Positions 12,039-20,255 of a stretch of 64,000 nucleotides of DNA are shown here, one piece after another. Both the position numbers and the translations under genes were made by a program. The stretch lies in contig JANXSF010000103.1 in NCBI GenBank assembly GCA_025352795.1, positions 1 through 64,000 on the forward strand, given 5' to 3'. How positions within the stretch are numbered: the stretch's first letter is position 1; every line of letters starts with the position of its first letter. This DNA is from Acidobacteriota bacterium. Its GTDB lineage: Bacteria; Acidobacteriota; Terriglobia; Bryobacterales; Bryobacteraceae. The notes beneath the pieces are model-generated. The model did not search any database, was not told the DNA's origin, and worked only from the letters and a program-made list of their open reading frames with translations.

Positions 12039-12407
12039 ATGCCCACGCACATTGCAAGCCCTTCGCGAATCACCGCTGCAGGAAATAAACCCAAGCTGAT
12101 TGATGAATACATTGGTCGAGTAAACTCCAAAACTGAAGCATTGAGTGTGGCTCACATGCGCTCACCCGGCGGATGGGTGGAACCAGGTCAGCGCCCGGAT
12201 TTTGACGAATACACCATTGTCCTGAAAGGCGCTTTGCGTGTGGAATTTGAAGGCGGTGAGATGCTGGTGAACGCTGGCCAAGCGGTCATCACAAACAAAG
12301 GCGAGTGGATCCGCTACAGCACTCCAGGTGATGAAGGTGCGGAATATATCGCCGTCTGCCTACCAGCGTTTGCCATGGGAACAGTTCATCGCGATCCCAA
12401 CGCTTAA
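12039..12407 (+). CDS. Cupin-domain protein
   Basis: 122 residues forming one small beta-barrel: DFDEYTIVLKGALRVEFEGG and VNAGQAVITNKGEWIRYSTP correspond to the two cupin motifs. The usual two His of motif 1 are replaced (RPDFDE), so metal binding, if any, uses acidic residues. AGAAGG sits immediately before the ATG, which is unusually close. The gene follows the VOC gene by 4 bases, so both are probably one transcript and may act on the same small molecule. Function is unknown; cupins of this size act as sugar-binding, isomerase or quercetin-dioxygenase-like proteins. Confidence 0.8.
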   Translation: MPTHIASPSRITAAGNKPKLIDEYIGRVNSKTEALSVAHMRSPGGWVEPGQRPDFDEYTIVLKGALRVEFEGGEMLVNAGQAVITNKGEWIRYSTPGDEGAEYIAVCLPAFAMGTVHRDPNA

Positions 12408-12444
12408 CTGAAAGCGGAAGTTTAATCTTTACTGAATCGATTCA

Positions 12445-13187
12445 ATGCAATTTCAGACCAAGCTGTTCAGATCAATTCTTGTTCTAGTTTCCAGTGTGGC
12501 CGTTGCGCAATCCCTTCCCGATGTGGATAAAGGGCAAGCACTGTTTGAAACTCATTGCACTTTATGCCATGGCATCAACGGCAAGGGTAGCCGTGGCCCC
12601 AGTTTAACCCGCGCGAAATTGGCAAAAGCACCCGACGATGCCGCCTTGAAGAAGCTCATTGAAAGTGGACTGGAACCGGAAATGCCTGGCAGTTGGTTTC
12701 TTCCGAGCAGGATCTGACACACCTCATTAGCTATGTTCGAAGCCTCGGCAAGATTCCGCCAGAACCGATAGTTGGCGATGCTGCACGCGGGTCTAAAATC
12801 TATGCCCAGAACAAATGTTCCGCCTGCCACATTGTTGCAGGCCAAGGGTCTGGCTTCGGTCCGGAGCTTACAGAGATCGCCTCACGCCGCAGCGTGTCTT
12901 ATCTTCGTGATTCCATCACTAGGCCGGCGGCAGCGCTGCCAGAAGGATTCCTGATGATAGAAGCGAAGTTACAATCACGGCAAACGATTCGCGGCATCCG
13001 TGCCAACGAAGACCCGTTTACGATTCAGATCAAAGATTCTGCAGGTCATTTTCATAGCTTGAGAAAATCAAACATCACCACGCTCAACAAGCTGCGAGGC
13101 CAAAGCCCCATGCCCGCCTACAAAATGCCTGTCGCCGATCTGGACGATCTGGTTACTTACATTGCATCCCTTGGAGCCAAACCATGA
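12445..13187 (+). pseudogene. Diheme c-type cytochrome gene with one frameshift
   Basis: The first frame (12445-12717) has a signal peptide and CTLCH (C38/C41/H42) and ends abruptly after EMPGSW. The second frame (12693-13187) resumes with SSEQDLTHLISYVRSLGK, which is the missing C-terminal helix of the first cytochrome domain, and carries the second haem site CSACH. So the two frames are one diheme protein broken near 12690-12700 by a one-base indel. Such exported diheme cytochromes of the PVC/acidobacterial type pass electrons from a partner dehydrogenase in the periplasm. The second frame has only a TTG start and no signal peptide, so it is unlikely to be a separate working gene. Either a real mutation or a sequencing error. 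Confidence 0.8.
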
Positions 13188-13240
13188 AATGGTGGTCTTT
13201 GTTTTTGTGCGTCTAAACGCCCTTGCGCAAGTACCCTACG
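13184..13240 (+). pseudogene. Remnant start of a secreted protein gene after the cytochrome
   Basis: An ATG at 13184 overlaps the cytochrome stop (ATGA), as for a coupled gene, and encodes MKWWSLFLCV before a stop. In the next frame the leader continues with LNALAQVPYA, an evident signal-peptide cleavage region. Homology to any family ends by about 13240, where an unrelated gene begins on the other strand. In related genomes such cytochromes are often followed by a PQQ-type dehydrogenase, so this may be all that is left of one; that identity is inference. Confidence 0.4.
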
Positions 13241-13699
13241 CTATTTGGGTATTTCAGCACATTGCGGTTTTTTGGGGAATCTCTTGAACCCACCAGTGAT
13301 TGCCCAAGCTTCATTTCGCTTGACCAACGTGATTGGATTGGAATCAACAAATCGATGCCAGTCTTCCCAGCCGCTTGAACTAGTCCATAATCGAGAAAGA
13401 CTGTACCGAATGGAACTCAGTGCTTTAAACTCGACGCCATTTGCAAGATCAATGGCAGTTAGCTCTATTGTTTGAAAATTTATTCCACCAATGAGCCCTG
13501 CAACTATTGCGGACTCTTCAGAATTCATGTACCACACGTCGCCGAAGCGAGGGTGGGTACAGGAAGTGTACCGCTCACCCCAATATGCATCCGCCTTCTG
13601 CGCCGCATCTGTAAGATCACTTCCCCAACTAAGAGTCGAAAAAATAAACATAAAACCTCTCGTACCAAACCCAACGCGCCAACAAAGTTTTTTCACCAT
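13241..13699 (-). CDS. Secreted protein of unknown function
   Basis: 152 residues with an N-terminal hydrophobic leader (about residues 8-25, ending near TLSWGS). The remainder is Trp/Ser-rich with short beta-type stretches (DVWYMNSEESAIVAGLIGG, EDWHRFVDSNPITLVKRN). A good GAGGAG ribosome site stands 7 bases before the ATG at 13699, which supports a real gene. I do not recognise the family. It sits immediately against the remnant of a plus-strand gene, so its arrival or a deletion there probably destroyed that neighbour. Confidence 0.6.
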   Translation of the reverse strand: MVKKLCWRVGFGTRGFMFIFSTLSWGSDLTDAAQKADAYWGERYTSCTHPRFGDVWYMNSEESAIVAGLIGGINFQTIELTAIDLANGVEFKALSSIRYSLSRLWTSSSGWEDWHRFVDSNPITLVKRNEAWAITGGFKRFPKKPQCAEIPK

Positions 13700-13992
13700 T
13701 GGAATCTCCTCATTTTGAAGAGAACTGCTTCAAACAGACGCAGCATTGATCGCTACCTAAAGGACAGCGATAAATTTTTTATTACGTTCCAATGGTACCA
13801 AGACATCTTGGAACAAATAGTAATTCTTAGGTGGGTCAATCAGGAAGGTATGATAATTCTGAAGAGGAATCCCTTGTCTTCCCAACTGGGCGATCAGGAG
13901 TGCAATTGGTCTACGAGTCGAGTCTGTCACTCCAGCCACACTGAACTAAAGACTTGATGGGGCTAGGTAATGGATACATGAACGACTAACCG

Positions 13993-16900
13993 CTATACTT
14001 CGACAGTTTCGCGAATCGGGACAGGAACTGTTTTCTTGCGCCGCAACATGTCCTGAAGCGCCGCCATGTACGTATAAACCACAGGCGTCAAATACAAAGT
14101 CACCAGTTGCGAGAACATCAACCCGCCAACAACCACCAACCCCAACGGTTGGCGTGCTTCCCCACCTGCGCCGTAACCCATGGCGATGGGCACCGCGCCC
14201 AGCAGTGCGGCCATGGTGGTCATCATGATCGGTCGGAAACGCGTCAGGCAGCCTTGGTAGATGGCTTCCTTGGGCGTGGCACCTTCCCGTTCTGCATCCA
14301 GCGCAAAATCAATTTGCATGATGGCGTTTTTCTTCACAATGCCAATCAGCATAATCAGGCCTACAAAGGCGTAAATGCTAAGATCCATCTTAAACAGGAA
14401 CAGAGTAATTAAAGCGCCGAATCCAGCGGAAGGAAGTCCGCTCAAAATCGTCAGTGGATGTACGTAGCTTTCATACAGAATGCCCAGCACAATATAGACG
14501 ACCAAGATCGCAACAACCAGCAAGACCCACAGGTTGCCTAACGATCCTTGGAAAGCCTTTGCCGCACCTTGGAAAGTGGAACTGACGTCTGCAGGCAAAG
14601 TCTCGGCCGCAAGCTCACCCACCTGGTGAACCACATCTCCCAAGGCTGCCCCCGACTTCAAGTTGAAGGAAATAGTAACAGCAGGCAACTGTCCGTAGTG
14701 GTTAATCGTTTGAGGACCCGTCTGTTCCGTAATGTCGGCTAAAGTATCCAGCGGAATCAGTTTTCCTCCGCCAGACTTGAAGTAAAGCAAAGACAACGCA
14801 TGCGGATCTTGCTGGTACTTCGGCATCAGCTCCAGCAGCACCTTGTATTCATTGATCGCTGCGTAAATTGTCGAAACCCAGCGCGGGCCATAAGCGTCGT
14901 AAAGCGAATTTTCAATCTGGTTGGCATTCACTTGAACAGCTGCGGCTTTGTCACGATTGATCTTCACGTGCACTTGCGGCGTGGCGATAGCAAGATCACT
15001 TGTAACATCCTCGACGCCATCTAGTTGTTCGATCTTAGCTCGCAATTCCTCAGAGGCCGCATATAGCTTTTGCTCATCCGTGGACTGCATGGAAAGCTGG
15101 TAGATACTCTTGGTCACCTGACCACCAAGCCGGATAGTGGGCGGATTTTGAATGTACACTTTCATGCCCGGAATGTGTGCCAATTGCGGTCGCAAACCGG
15201 CAATCACTTGGTCCACTGCTAACTTGCGCTTCACGCGGGGTTTTAAGTGAACTACTAACTGCCCGTAGTTGGGACCACCCATCGATGAAGCAGCCGCACC
15301 GCCAACACTCGACACCAAGGCCTCAATATTTTCGTCGTTACGGAAGATGTCGGAAATCTCTTTCTGATACTTCACCATCTGAATAAACGAAGTTCCTTGC
15401 GCCGCCTCCGTCACCGCGAAAATCTGGTCTGTATCCTGATCGGGAATGAAGCCCTTGGGGATGTGAATGAACATCCAGCCGGTAGCTCCCAGCACCAGAA
15501 AAAAACTAGCCATGGTGAGCACACGCCGCTCCAAAACCCATTTCAAAGACACATCGTAACCATGAAGCAGGCCGACGAAAAACCTTTCCGTAATGCGATA
15601 AAACCAACCGTGCTCACTATGTCCGCCGCGCAGAAATCGACTGCACAACATGGGCGTCAACGTAACCGACACAACACCTGATATCAGAATCGCCACGGTG
15701 ATGGTTACAGCAAACTCTTTGAACAAACGACCCAAAACGCCACCCATGAACAACACTGGGATGAACACGGCGGCAAGGGAAATGGTCATGGAAACGATCG
15801 TAAAACCAATTTCGCGCGAACCCTTTAATGCCGCCTGCATTGGTTTTTCGCCCATCTCAATGTGACGGACAATGTTCTCAAGCATGACAATCGCATCGTC
15901 CACCACGAACCCGATCGACAAAATCAACGCCATCATCGAAAGGTTATCCAAACTGTAGTTCAGCAAGTACATCACGGCAAACGTTCCGATAATCGAAAAG
16001 GGTAATGCCAAGCTGGGAATCAAGGTTGCAGAGAAACTGCGCAGGAAAACGAAAATAACCATTACCACGAGGCCCAAGGTGAGTGCCATGGTGAACAGAA
16101 CATCGTCGTAGGATTCTCGAATCGATTCCGAACGGTCATACAAAATGTCCATCGAAACAGTTGGTGGAAGTTCTGTCTTGAACGAAGGAAGCAGTTTCTT
16201 GATGCCTTCGGTGACGTCGATTGTATTGGTGCCTGGCTGACGTTGAACCGCCAACACGATGGACCGCGCGCCGCTTTCCTTTTTGTAGAACCAGGATGCG
16301 GTCTTATCGTCTTCCACTCCGTCCGTCACATTGGCGAGTTCATCCAATCGAATGGGCGATCCACGACGATAAGCCACCACCAGCGACTGGTATTGCGCTG
16401 CATTCATCAACTGACCCGACGCCTGCAATGTAAACGCGCGCTGCGGACCAGAAATAGTTCCCGTCGGTAGGTTCACGTTCCAACTCTTTAACGACGTTTC
16501 GATTTCGTTCAAACCGACTTGGCGGGAAGCCAGTGCATGAGGATCAACCTGCACGTGGACAGAATATTTTTGAGCACCCAACACCTGGACCTGCGCCACG
16601 CCTGTAACCATGGAAATGCGCTGCGCAATGCGAGTTTGTGCGTACTCATCCAAAGTGTACAAAGGAACAGTGGGGGACGTAAGTGCCAAGTACAACACCG
16701 GCTGATCAGCAGGATTCACCTTGGTGAACGTTGGAGGAGTCGGCATCCCTGGAGGCAGCAGGCGTGATGCTTGCGTAATTGCCGCTTGGACATCTACAGC
16801 TGCACCATCCAAGCTGCGGCTCAAATCAAACTCCAAAGTGATTTGGGTTGAGCCCAGCGAATTCGAAGAGGTCATCGCGTTCAACCCGGCGATCATGGAA

Positions 16901-17112
16901 AATTGATTTTCCAACGGCTTGGCCACAGCCGATGCCATGTTCTCTGGACTGGCACCTGGCAGACTTGCCGTGACTAACAAAGTCGGAAAGTCGACGTTCG
17001 GCAAATCGCTCACAGGCAACTCGCGATATGCCACCAAACCAAACATCCCGATGGCCAGCATCAGCAATGTGGTGGCAATAGGCCTCTCAATAAAACTCTG
17101 CGAAATATTCAC
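13993..17112 (-). CDS. RND efflux pump, inner-membrane transporter (second pump of the operon)
   Basis: 1039 residues, the normal length for HAE1-type RND pumps. It starts with NISQSFIERPIATTLLMLAIGMFGL, has the paired Asp of TM4 in GFVVDDAIVMLENIV, and the typical repeats of two halves, each with a large periplasmic loop and six membrane helices. RND pumps exchange protons for drugs, lipids or metals and work with an adaptor and an outer-membrane channel. The gene lies 8 bases behind a second, paralogous pump gene, as in MdtBC-type pairs that form mixed trimers. No outer-membrane channel gene is nearby. Confidence 0.96.
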   Translation of the reverse strand: MNISQSFIERPIATTLLMLAIGMFGLVAYRELPVSDLPNVDFPTLLVTASLPGASPENMASAVAKPLENQFSMIAGLNAMTSSNSLGSTQITLEFDLSRSLDGAAVDVQAAITQASRLLPPGMPTPPTFTKVNPADQPVLYLALTSPTVPLYTLDEYAQTRIAQRISMVTGVAQVQVLGAQKYSVHVQVDPHALASRQVGLNEIETSLKSWNVNLPTGTISGPQRAFTLQASGQLMNAAQYQSLVVAYRRGSPIRLDELANVTDGVEDDKTASWFYKKESGARSIVLAVQRQPGTNTIDVTEGIKKLLPSFKTELPPTVSMDILYDRSESIRESYDDVLFTMALTLGLVVMVIFVFLRSFSATLIPSLALPFSIIGTFAVMYLLNYSLDNLSMMALILSIGFVVDDAIVMLENIVRHIEMGEKPMQAALKGSREIGFTIVSMTISLAAVFIPVLFMGGVLGRLFKEFAVTITVAILISGVVSVTLTPMLCSRFLRGGHSEHGWFYRITERFFVGLLHGYDVSLKWVLERRVLTMASFFLVLGATGWMFIHIPKGFIPDQDTDQIFAVTEAAQGTSFIQMVKYQKEISDIFRNDENIEALVSSVGGAAASSMGGPNYGQLVVHLKPRVKRKLAVDQVIAGLRPQLAHIPGMKVYIQNPPTIRLGGQVTKSIYQLSMQSTDEQKLYAASEELRAKIEQLDGVEDVTSDLAIATPQVHVKINRDKAAAVQVNANQIENSLYDAYGPRWVSTIYAAINEYKVLLELMPKYQQDPHALSLLYFKSGGGKLIPLDTLADITEQTGPQTINHYGQLPAVTISFNLKSGAALGDVVHQVGELAAETLPADVSSTFQGAAKAFQGSLGNLWVLLVVAILVVYIVLGILYESYVHPLTILSGLPSAGFGALITLFLFKMDLSIYAFVGLIMLIGIVKKNAIMQIDFALDAEREGATPKEAIYQGCLTRFRPIMMTTMAALLGAVPIAMGYGAGGEARQPLGLVVVGGLMFSQLVTLYLTPVVYTYMAALQDMLRRKKTVPVPIRETVEV

Positions 17113-17120
17113 TGGCCTGG

Positions 17121-20100
17121 TTAATCTCCCGTACTCGTCGCCGGAGTCATCGGCTTTCGTCTACCAGTCAACAATCGGTAGATACGTTCTTTCATCGCAT
17201 CCATGTAGGTGTAAACCACTGGCGTCAAATACAGTGTGATCAACTGCGAAAAAACAAGTCCGCCAACCACCGCAAGACCCAGCGGACGTCGCGATTCTCC
17301 ACCCGCACCGAATCCAATTGCCATTGGAATCGATCCCAGCAGCGCAGCCAAGGTCGTCATCATAATGGGGCGGAAGCGAACCATGCAACCTTGAAAAATC
17401 GCCTCTTCAGGACTTAGCCCCAGCTTACGCTCTGCATCCAAAGCAAAGTCGATTTGCATGATCGCGTTCTTCTTCACAATGCCGATCAACATCATCAAAC
17501 CCACAAACGCGTAGATATTCAGTTCGACATTGAAAATCAAGAGCGTCAGCAAGGCACCGAACACTGCCGAAGGTAAGCCCGAAAGAATCGTCAACGGCTG
17601 TACAAAGCTTTCGTACAAGATGCCCAGCACGATGTAGACAATCGCCACTGCGATCAGCAGCAGCAGTCCTAGATTCTTCAATGAACTCTGGAATGCTTTC
17701 GCCGTACCTTGGAAGCTGGTGGTGATTGTTGGAGGCAGTACTTGGTCTGCAACTTCCTGCACCTGCTCAACAGCATCGCCAAGCGCAACGCCCGGCTTCA
17801 GATTGAACGAAATCGTCACCGACGGAACCTGCCCGGAATGATTGATGCTCTGTGGCATCGCATCCTGATTCAAGCTGGTAAACGAATCCATCGGTACTAA
17901 GCCGCCCTTCGACGTTTTGAAATAGAGCAAAGACAAAAGGTCAGCGTGTTCCTGATATTGTGGCTCCAACTCCAGGAGGACGCGATATTGATTGTTGTCC
18001 CCGTAAATAGTGGAAACCCACTTAGGCCCATAAGCACCGTAAATCACCGATTCAATTTCTTCGGCATTCAGACCTAGGGAAGCCGCTCGGTCACGGTCTA
18101 TAGTTACGTTCACCCGTGGATTGCGAACTTGGATATCACTGGTAATCTCAGCCAGCGCGGGCACTTTCGCCAGCTCTTTTTCCAACTTTTGTCCCTGACG
18201 ATAAAGCTCCAGAGTGTCTGGACCCTGCAGAGTAAACTCGTATTGGCTCTTCGAGCTTCGTCCGCCTAATCGAACCATTTGTGGAGCAGACATGAAAGCG
18301 CGAATGCCAGGGAGTTGATTCAATTTGGGACGCAGCTTGCCGATAATTTCTGTAACGCTCAACTCACGTTCCTTACGTGGCTTCAACGATACATACATAC
18401 GCCCCGTATTCGATCCGCCAGCGCCGAACATAGATCCGCCACCAGAACTCGACATGAAATTATCCACGTTTGGATCGTCTGCAACTATTCGTGCGATCCG
18501 CTGCTGCATTTCGTTCATCCTGGGATAGGAGGTGCCCTGAAGCGCTTCCGTGTTCACGGACATCTGATCACTGTCCTGATCAGGAATGAACCCTTTGGGC
18601 ACGCGATCAAATAAGTACACTGTTGACACCAGAATGCCCGCAAACACAACACCCATAATTGGCCGATAGCGAAGTACCCATCGTAAACTTCCACCGTAAA
18701 TCCGAACCATGAATTCCAAAACTCGTTCCATGAAGTTGTACAAAAATCCATGTTTTTCATGCGGTGTGTAGCGCAACAAACGACTGCACAACATCGGCGT
18801 AAGCGTTACGGATACTAAGCCTGAAATCAAAACAGCGACCGTGATGGTGACCGCAAATTCACGAAAGAGTCTGCCTAAAATTCCACCCATGAACAGCACT
18901 GGGATGAATACTGCGGCCAAGGAAAGAGTCATGGAAACAATCGTGAAGCTGATTTCTTTTGATCCCTTCAGCGCAGCCTCCATTGGCGGAACACCCAGTT
19001 CAATATGACGAACAATGTTTTCCAACATTACAATGGCATCGTCAACCACGAACCCAATCGAAAGAATCAACGCCATCATCGAAAGGTTATCCAGGCTATA
19101 CCCCAAAAGATACATCACAGCGAACGTGCCAATAAGCGAAACCGGCAAAGCTAAAGATGGAATCAATGTGGCTGAAAAATTCCGCAAAAACAGGAAAATC
19201 ACCATGATAACCAGCATGGCCGTCACGCCCATGGTGACTTGGATATCGTGGAAAGAGTCCCGAATATTCTTAGACCGATCACCACGAATCCACAGTTCGG
19301 TTGACGGTGGAAGTTGAGCCTTGAAATTCGGCATTAACTCTTTAATCTTGTCGATCACTTCAATTGTGTTGCTGCTCGGTTGACGCATCACCATCAGGTT
19401 GATGCCGCGCATCTCGTAGTTCTTCGCGTAAGCCCAAGAGGATGTCTTATCGTCTTCAACGCCGTCCAGAATCTTGCCTAGATCCTCCAACCTCACGGCC
19501 GCCCCATTCCGATAGGCAACAATCGCTTTCTTGTACCCTTCAGCATTCATCAACTGCCCGTCAGCCTGAATGCTATACGATTTCGTTTGCCCGAACAAAG
19601 CACCAGTGGGCATGTTGACGTTCCAATCCCTAATGGCTTGGTCAACTTCATTGATGCCGATCTTGCGAGCCGCCAATTTATTGGGATCCAGTTGAATGTG
19701 AACCGCATATTTCTGCGAACTCATCACCATCACCTGCGCCACGCCTGGAACCGTCGAAACCTGCTGAGCAATCATCGTCTCGGCATATTCGCTAAGTTTG
19801 TACATCGGCATGGTGGAACTGGTCAGTCCCAGAAACATGATGGGCGATTCTGCAGGATTCACTTTACGGAAGGAGGGAGGACTGGGCATTCCGCCCGGCA
19901 ACAGCGGCATCGCAGCGCTGATGGCGGTTTGCACGTCTACGGAAGCTCCGTCCAATTCACGACTGAGGTCGAACTGAAGGGTAATCTGCGCAGAGCCCAT
20001 CGAACTGACAGAGGTCATCGAATCCAAGCCTGAAATCGTGGTGAACTGCCGTTCCAAAGGAGTTGCCACGGAAGAGGCCATCGTTTCCGGATTCGCTCCA

Positions 20101-20255
20101 GGCAAACTAGCGGACACAACAAGTGTAGGGAAATTGACGTTTGGCAGATCTGCCACGGGCAACGCATTGTAGGCCAACACTCCGAACAAAGTGATGGCGG
20201 CCATAATCAAACTGGTTGCGATTGGCCTGTTAATGAACGTTGCCGAAAAGTTCAT
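17121..20255 (-). CDS. RND efflux pump, inner-membrane transporter (first pump of the operon)
   Basis: 1044 residues, again full length. MNFSATFINRPIATSLIM opens the first helix and GFVVDDAIVMLENIVRHIE carries the proton-relay Asp pair. It is clearly a paralogue of the downstream pump, sharing long near-identical blocks in the membrane helices while the periplasmic loops differ. Its ATG overlaps the stop of the adaptor gene (20252-20255), so adaptor and pump are translationally coupled. Together the three genes have the MdtABC arrangement (adaptor, pump, pump). The exported substrate cannot be inferred. Confidence 0.96.
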   Translation of the reverse strand: MNFSATFINRPIATSLIMAAITLFGVLAYNALPVADLPNVNFPTLVVSASLPGANPETMASSVATPLERQFTTISGLDSMTSVSSMGSAQITLQFDLSRELDGASVDVQTAISAAMPLLPGGMPSPPSFRKVNPAESPIMFLGLTSSTMPMYKLSEYAETMIAQQVSTVPGVAQVMVMSSQKYAVHIQLDPNKLAARKIGINEVDQAIRDWNVNMPTGALFGQTKSYSIQADGQLMNAEGYKKAIVAYRNGAAVRLEDLGKILDGVEDDKTSSWAYAKNYEMRGINLMVMRQPSSNTIEVIDKIKELMPNFKAQLPPSTELWIRGDRSKNIRDSFHDIQVTMGVTAMLVIMVIFLFLRNFSATLIPSLALPVSLIGTFAVMYLLGYSLDNLSMMALILSIGFVVDDAIVMLENIVRHIELGVPPMEAALKGSKEISFTIVSMTLSLAAVFIPVLFMGGILGRLFREFAVTITVAVLISGLVSVTLTPMLCSRLLRYTPHEKHGFLYNFMERVLEFMVRIYGGSLRWVLRYRPIMGVVFAGILVSTVYLFDRVPKGFIPDQDSDQMSVNTEALQGTSYPRMNEMQQRIARIVADDPNVDNFMSSSGGGSMFGAGGSNTGRMYVSLKPRKERELSVTEIIGKLRPKLNQLPGIRAFMSAPQMVRLGGRSSKSQYEFTLQGPDTLELYRQGQKLEKELAKVPALAEITSDIQVRNPRVNVTIDRDRAASLGLNAEEIESVIYGAYGPKWVSTIYGDNNQYRVLLELEPQYQEHADLLSLLYFKTSKGGLVPMDSFTSLNQDAMPQSINHSGQVPSVTISFNLKPGVALGDAVEQVQEVADQVLPPTITTSFQGTAKAFQSSLKNLGLLLLIAVAIVYIVLGILYESFVQPLTILSGLPSAVFGALLTLLIFNVELNIYAFVGLMMLIGIVKKNAIMQIDFALDAERKLGLSPEEAIFQGCMVRFRPIMMTTLAALLGSIPMAIGFGAGGESRRPLGLAVVGGLVFSQLITLYLTPVVYTYMDAMKERIYRLLTGRRKPMTPATSTGD

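Follow-up and report, generated by a model that had tools for sequence, protein, structure and literature searches.

The locus considered here raises the question of how a cytochrome gene that is open in one reading frame and then in another, followed by a gene that stops almost as soon as it has begun, should be interpreted. Both lie within a window of 64,000 bases (the whole stretch of DNA that was analysed), which corresponds to the first 64,000 bases of contig C73. Very probably, the locus is a pseudogene, a degraded copy without function of an electron-transfer unit of the periplasm that is widespread among relatives, the dehydrogenase having been lost by deletion or rearrangement. This interpretation follows from the intact frames found in relatives, the point at which homology stops, and the absence of any further piece of the dehydrogenase in the window or the assembly. 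What is seen is ordinary gene decay and not a new system. The features are collected in Table 1.

Table 1. Positions and properties of the features at and around the break; + and − denote the strand.
Feature	Position	Strand	Properties or basis
Cytochrome, 5′ half	12445–12717	+	ORF of 90 aa; signal-peptide-like start; CTLCH; stop 12715–12717
Cytochrome, 3′ half	12693–13187	+	ORF of 164 aa; CSACH; TIGR02603-type domain
Frame overlap holding the cytochrome frame change	12693–12717	+	ORFs, heptamer scan, alignment
Start of the coupled gene	13184–13216	+	ATGA overlap with the cytochrome stop; ten-codon leader MKWWSLFLCV; stop 13214–13216
Leader end, other frame	13216–13240	+	NALAQVPY (13216–13239); last recognisable dehydrogenase remnant
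Small secreted-type protein gene	13241–13699	−	152 aa; apparently complete; stop codon 13241–13243 at the break; no known family
RND efflux pump gene, right-hand neighbour	13993–17112	−	Open

The 3′ half of the cytochrome gene lies in the −1 frame relative to the 5′ half. Both halves match cytochrome c domain models; the 5′ half is recognised by PF13442 (36.5 bits; cut-off 27) and PF00034 (33.3 bits; cut-off 21.3), and the 3′ half by PF00034 (54.8 bits) and, for this second domain, also by the NCBIfam model TIGR02603 (78.9 bits, over the cut-off of 68.15). Both CxxCH haem motifs are present, though in different frames (5′ half, CTLCH; 3′ half, CSACH). When the halves are aligned as separate rows with ten intact relatives, they run consecutively and join at MPGSW / SSEQDL, and both haem motifs as well as most of the conserved residues are retained. 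The identity of the 3′ half to its three nearest relatives is 50–52%. The claim of the sequence-only reading that a dihaem cytochrome is split by an indel is thus borne out, with one frame change between 12693 and 12717. As the haem domain of the 5′ half lacks its end and there is no signal peptide on the 3′ half, neither should yield a working secreted cytochrome. Judged by its sequence, the gene is best regarded as a pseudogene of the dihaem c-type family and not as a working member.

The codon usage of the 3′ half is in keeping with this. Its codon fit is 0.016 bits per codon, compared with 0.217 and 0.178 for two paralogous cytochromes of the same genome; the neighbouring sulfatase gene has a value of 0.074. 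The low fit weakly supports drift after inactivation. The value still falls just inside the range of 147 sense stretches from 17 window genes (minimum −0.008), so that the decay is either recent or not proven by composition. Only one of the relatives' genomes is congeneric; its best match is at 38%, and hence it provides no close outgroup for a substitution-rate test.

The intact form of the unit can be studied in relatives. A search with the 3′ half against 60 relatives and the own genome (E up to 0.001) gave matches in 55 of the 61 genomes, the own one included and thus 54 relatives. The best locus per genome was examined for 24 of these 54 relatives, five of them being re-read from longer stretches. 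Comparison with these genomes confirms the split; in all 24 copies, the counterparts of the 5′ and 3′ halves lie in one continuous open frame, which is absent from the window cytochrome. Two CxxCH motifs are found in 23 of the 24 copies; the remaining one (G035) sits at a contig edge and shows one motif. In two genomes, G014 and G026, the single cytochrome frame is far longer (739 and 933 aa, respectively).

In 21 of the 24 copies, a dehydrogenase-like frame starts between −14 and +1 bases from the cytochrome stop, while in G021 there is no frame downstream of the cytochrome in the stretch read, which is near the contig end. These downstream frames, most of which are read only to the end of the locus, start in a dehydrogenase-like manner; the signal peptide is typically followed by A-Q-V-P-Y-E-R or a similar sequence. 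One such partner, that of G023 (L058), was scored; it reaches 526.9 bits against TIGR03075 (PQQ-dependent methanol/ethanol dehydrogenase; cut-off 480.05) and 515.8 bits against TIGR04528 ('acido-empty-quinoprotein group A'), which is under the cut-off of 650. Its closest solved structure is that of a quinoprotein ethanol dehydrogenase (pdb 6zcv). The proposal of the sequence-only reading that the window holds the remains of a periplasmic dehydrogenase–cytochrome system agrees both with the frequency of the downstream frames and with the score of the G023 partner.

Quinoprotein ethanol dehydrogenase (6zcv) and the MxaF/XoxF methanol dehydrogenases with their cytochromes belong to a superfamily in which a periplasmic enzyme passes electrons to a c-type cytochrome, and the G023 partner falls into the same superfamily. 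Unlike these systems, the pair in the relatives has a dihaem cytochrome, the gene for which precedes that of the enzyme. The substrate of such cytochrome–dehydrogenase pairs is an alcohol or aldehyde, which they oxidise in the periplasm, with the electrons going to cytochrome c. By analogy with these families, the intact form in the relatives is predicted to be a periplasmic cytochrome–dehydrogenase pair; its PQQ-type β-propeller dehydrogenase would oxidise a substrate, probably an alcohol or aldehyde, and would hand the electrons to the dihaem cytochrome c, which is encoded just upstream and presumably translated in a coupled fashion. The window resembles this pair (TIGR02603/PF00034 for the cytochrome; TIGR03075, related to TIGR04528, for the dehydrogenase) in its cytochrome domains, in the coupled order, and in the leader as far as A-Q-V-P-Y. 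It differs in that the cytochrome and the leader are both frame-split and in that the dehydrogenase is gone after the leader. The XoxF3 systems of Acidobacteria constitute a different dehydrogenase cluster, according to PMC10875860.

The piece of the dehydrogenase gene that remains in the window is a leader of about 18 residues. It carries its own frame change, the second in the region, which the sequence-only reading did not mention. Recognisable dehydrogenase sequence ends after 'VPY', within the motif typical of the leader end in relatives. Over 19 bases (13222–13240), the DNA is identical to the end of the dehydrogenase leader in L059 (G050), and then diverges completely. The translated match comprises 7 identical residues and on its own has a tblastn E value of 0.48, while spurious hits from that stretch go as low as E 0.07; the assignment is convincing because of the position of the remnant at the end of a start-coupled leader and not because of the match score. 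Beyond 13240, the coupled PQQ-type dehydrogenase expected directly downstream is absent. No remnant is found in the whole window at E 0.01 with ten dehydrogenase queries (eight from relatives and two from the own genome); at E 1, the same queries give only two 20-residue matches, both far away. The cytochrome half served as a positive control for this search and was found.

Other parts of the sequence-only reading concern this break. That the coupled gene keeps only its start and the end of its signal peptide is corroborated by the ATGA start at 13184 and the stop of homology at 13240, and a minus-strand gene does follow, its stop codon lying directly at the break. The further statement that the system was cut by a deletion or insertion holds as far as the truncation at 13240 is concerned; deletion, insertion and mis-join are indistinguishable. 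Besides a deletion or an insertion, some other rearrangement or a join made during assembly may have produced the break, and the data are compatible with each of these. The arrangement before the break was not found in any of the relatives' stretches examined. A mobile element was considered as a cause and rejected; there are no direct repeats in 12400–14100 and there is no repeat at the junction. The same interval contains two inverted-repeat pairs, namely a palindrome at 12555–12584 and a pair with 12-base arms at 13514 and 13855, neither of which is at the break.

The missing part of the dehydrogenase might also be sought elsewhere in the genome. Searches with a partner protein and with TIGR04528 return nine own dehydrogenases that cover most of the query. 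All nine are full-length paralogues that read without inner stops, and the genes on C103 and C115 pass the TIGR04528 cut-off. In a tree of 30 dehydrogenases, 19 of the relatives' partners fall on one side of a branch with support of 96/98, and none of the nine own proteins is inside this group; the partners of G009 and G028 are outside it as well and group with the own protein from C63. The tree omits four partial own matches of lower similarity (C86, C77, C9 and another site on C93; E 8.5e-32 to 4.9e-46). Identity to the G023 partner is 48% for the best own dehydrogenase but 53–69% for the partners of 13 other units, several of these sequences being cut at locus ends. From the placement in the tree and this gap in identity it follows that the missing part is not found elsewhere in the assembly, and a move of the partner to another place in the genome is ruled against by the position of the nine nearest own dehydrogenases outside the partner group. 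As the assembly (6.05 Mb) is 96.58% complete and in 140 contigs, the missing dehydrogenase could lie in unassembled DNA.

A protein with two CxxCH motifs is found beside, or in frame with, six of the nine own dehydrogenases (C118, C63, C57, C26, C44 and C115, the last being a weak match), so that the loss of the window unit was probably tolerated. On C118, C26 and C57 (L002, L005 and L004), the dihaem cytochrome and the dehydrogenase form a single open frame of 750–788 aa; these are fusions.

In principle, the defects could belong to the contig and not to the organism. Sequencing errors could account for the two frame changes and a mis-join for 13240/13241, in which case the organism would have an intact pair and the contig two indel errors together with a chimeric join. 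Short homopolymer runs do lie close to both frame changes, none of the stretches examined in relatives has this junction, and the 60 relatives lack the minus-strand gene on its far side. Such errors would, however, have had to produce three defects (two frame changes and a truncation) within about 0.55 kb of a genome in which nine dehydrogenases read without inner stops, which makes a general sequencing error unlikely. In addition, the adjoining efflux genes of 1039 and 1044 aa are open, the broken region is present in a single copy in the own genome, and the assembly yielded no orphan dehydrogenase belonging to the partner group. An artefact of assembly or sequencing is therefore quite improbable. 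The probability is smaller still that the cytochrome is still made by ribosomal frameshifting and serves another of the own dehydrogenases, of which there are at least nine. The retention of the conserved residues of both haem domains would be in accord with continued synthesis, but neither frame change is accompanied by a slippery heptamer of the type X-XXY-YYZ (scanned over 12680–12720 for the cytochrome), and programmed frameshifting was rejected as the main reading on this ground. Moreover, relatives manage with a single frame in every copy examined, most of the own dehydrogenases already have a two-CxxCH protein adjoining or in frame, and the leader of the missing gene has been hit by a frame change as well.

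A further aspect is the cofactor, PQQ. An adjacent pair of cysteines is typical of PQQ alcohol dehydrogenases. The pair is missing in seven of 21 relatives' partner dehydrogenases (L056, L011, L012, L013, L015, L064 and L021), among them the partners from the three units closest to the window cytochrome (G004, G033 and G023). This absence would fit a broader reading in which the wreck marks one stage of an ongoing erosion or conversion of PQQ enzymes, the host either having to import PQQ or running these proteins without it; this reading is rather unlikely. No protein of the own genome exceeds the cut-off for PqqE (best score 66.2 against 381.35 bits), even though this genome retains at least nine dehydrogenases of quinoprotein-like type. 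The cut-off is passed in four of the 41 genomes searched, the own one and 40 relatives (G007, G022, G039 and G047), and in none of 14 named control genomes. For PqqC, there is no match in the own genome, and the control genomes are equally silent. According to PMC12124388, PQQ synthesis is lacking in many Gram-negative bacteria that possess PQQ enzymes, and among Acidobacteria, PQQ importers are reported only for the class Vicinamibacteria.

For the preferred interpretation, decay of a single unit, a plausible course can be outlined. A deletion or rearrangement with its end at 13240/13241 would have severed the dehydrogenase gene immediately behind the part for the signal peptide. The likeliest order is that the enzyme was lost first and that the cytochrome, now without a partner, then decayed neutrally. 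The window locus thus represents the routine decay of one of about ten related units in its own genome. For annotation, this means that the two hypothetical proteins given here should become one cytochrome pseudogene. The locus also provides one data point on the loss of quinoprotein units in a lineage that yielded no PqqE gene. Among open-licence PMC papers, the name 'acido-empty-quinoprotein' was not found, nor was the decay of such units the subject of any of the titles listed. A plasmid search with the 3′ half of the cytochrome gave just four distant matches (25–32%).

On the far side of the break, the minus-strand protein of 152 aa has no match in Pfam or NCBIfam, none among plasmids or viruses, and none in the 60 relatives. 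A single distant relative (in G206; 28% identity, E 2.5e-8) is present in a set of 256 further genomes of the order; it is similar through the C-terminal end of the protein (CAEIP / CSEVP). As this alignment reaches the last residues, the gene looks complete. Its codon fit of −0.103 bits per codon is under that of all 147 sense stretches and within the antisense range. A frame of at least 152 codons occurs in 0.65% of 2000 simulated sequences of the same composition; this rarity, together with the relative in G206, suggests that the gene is probably real and perhaps acquired. The G+C content is 0.458 for the stretch of the gene and 0.433 for 13700–13992, as opposed to 0.516 for the window. The DNA is present as a single copy in the own genome, and the predicted structure of the protein has a mean pLDDT of 48.9.

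The surroundings were also compared. DNA homology does not extend past the stop of the efflux gene (13993 in the window) in any of eight relatives, and their stretches beside the efflux counterpart gave no match to either cytochrome half or to the minus-strand protein. The upstream glyoxalase-like gene has good relatives in G033 and G037, on contigs other than those of their cytochromes. Within 13993–20255 on the minus strand, the window contains two tandem RND efflux genes, those with open frames of 1039 and 1044 aa, which share 60% identity. A comparable pair of neighbouring RND efflux genes occurs in several relatives.
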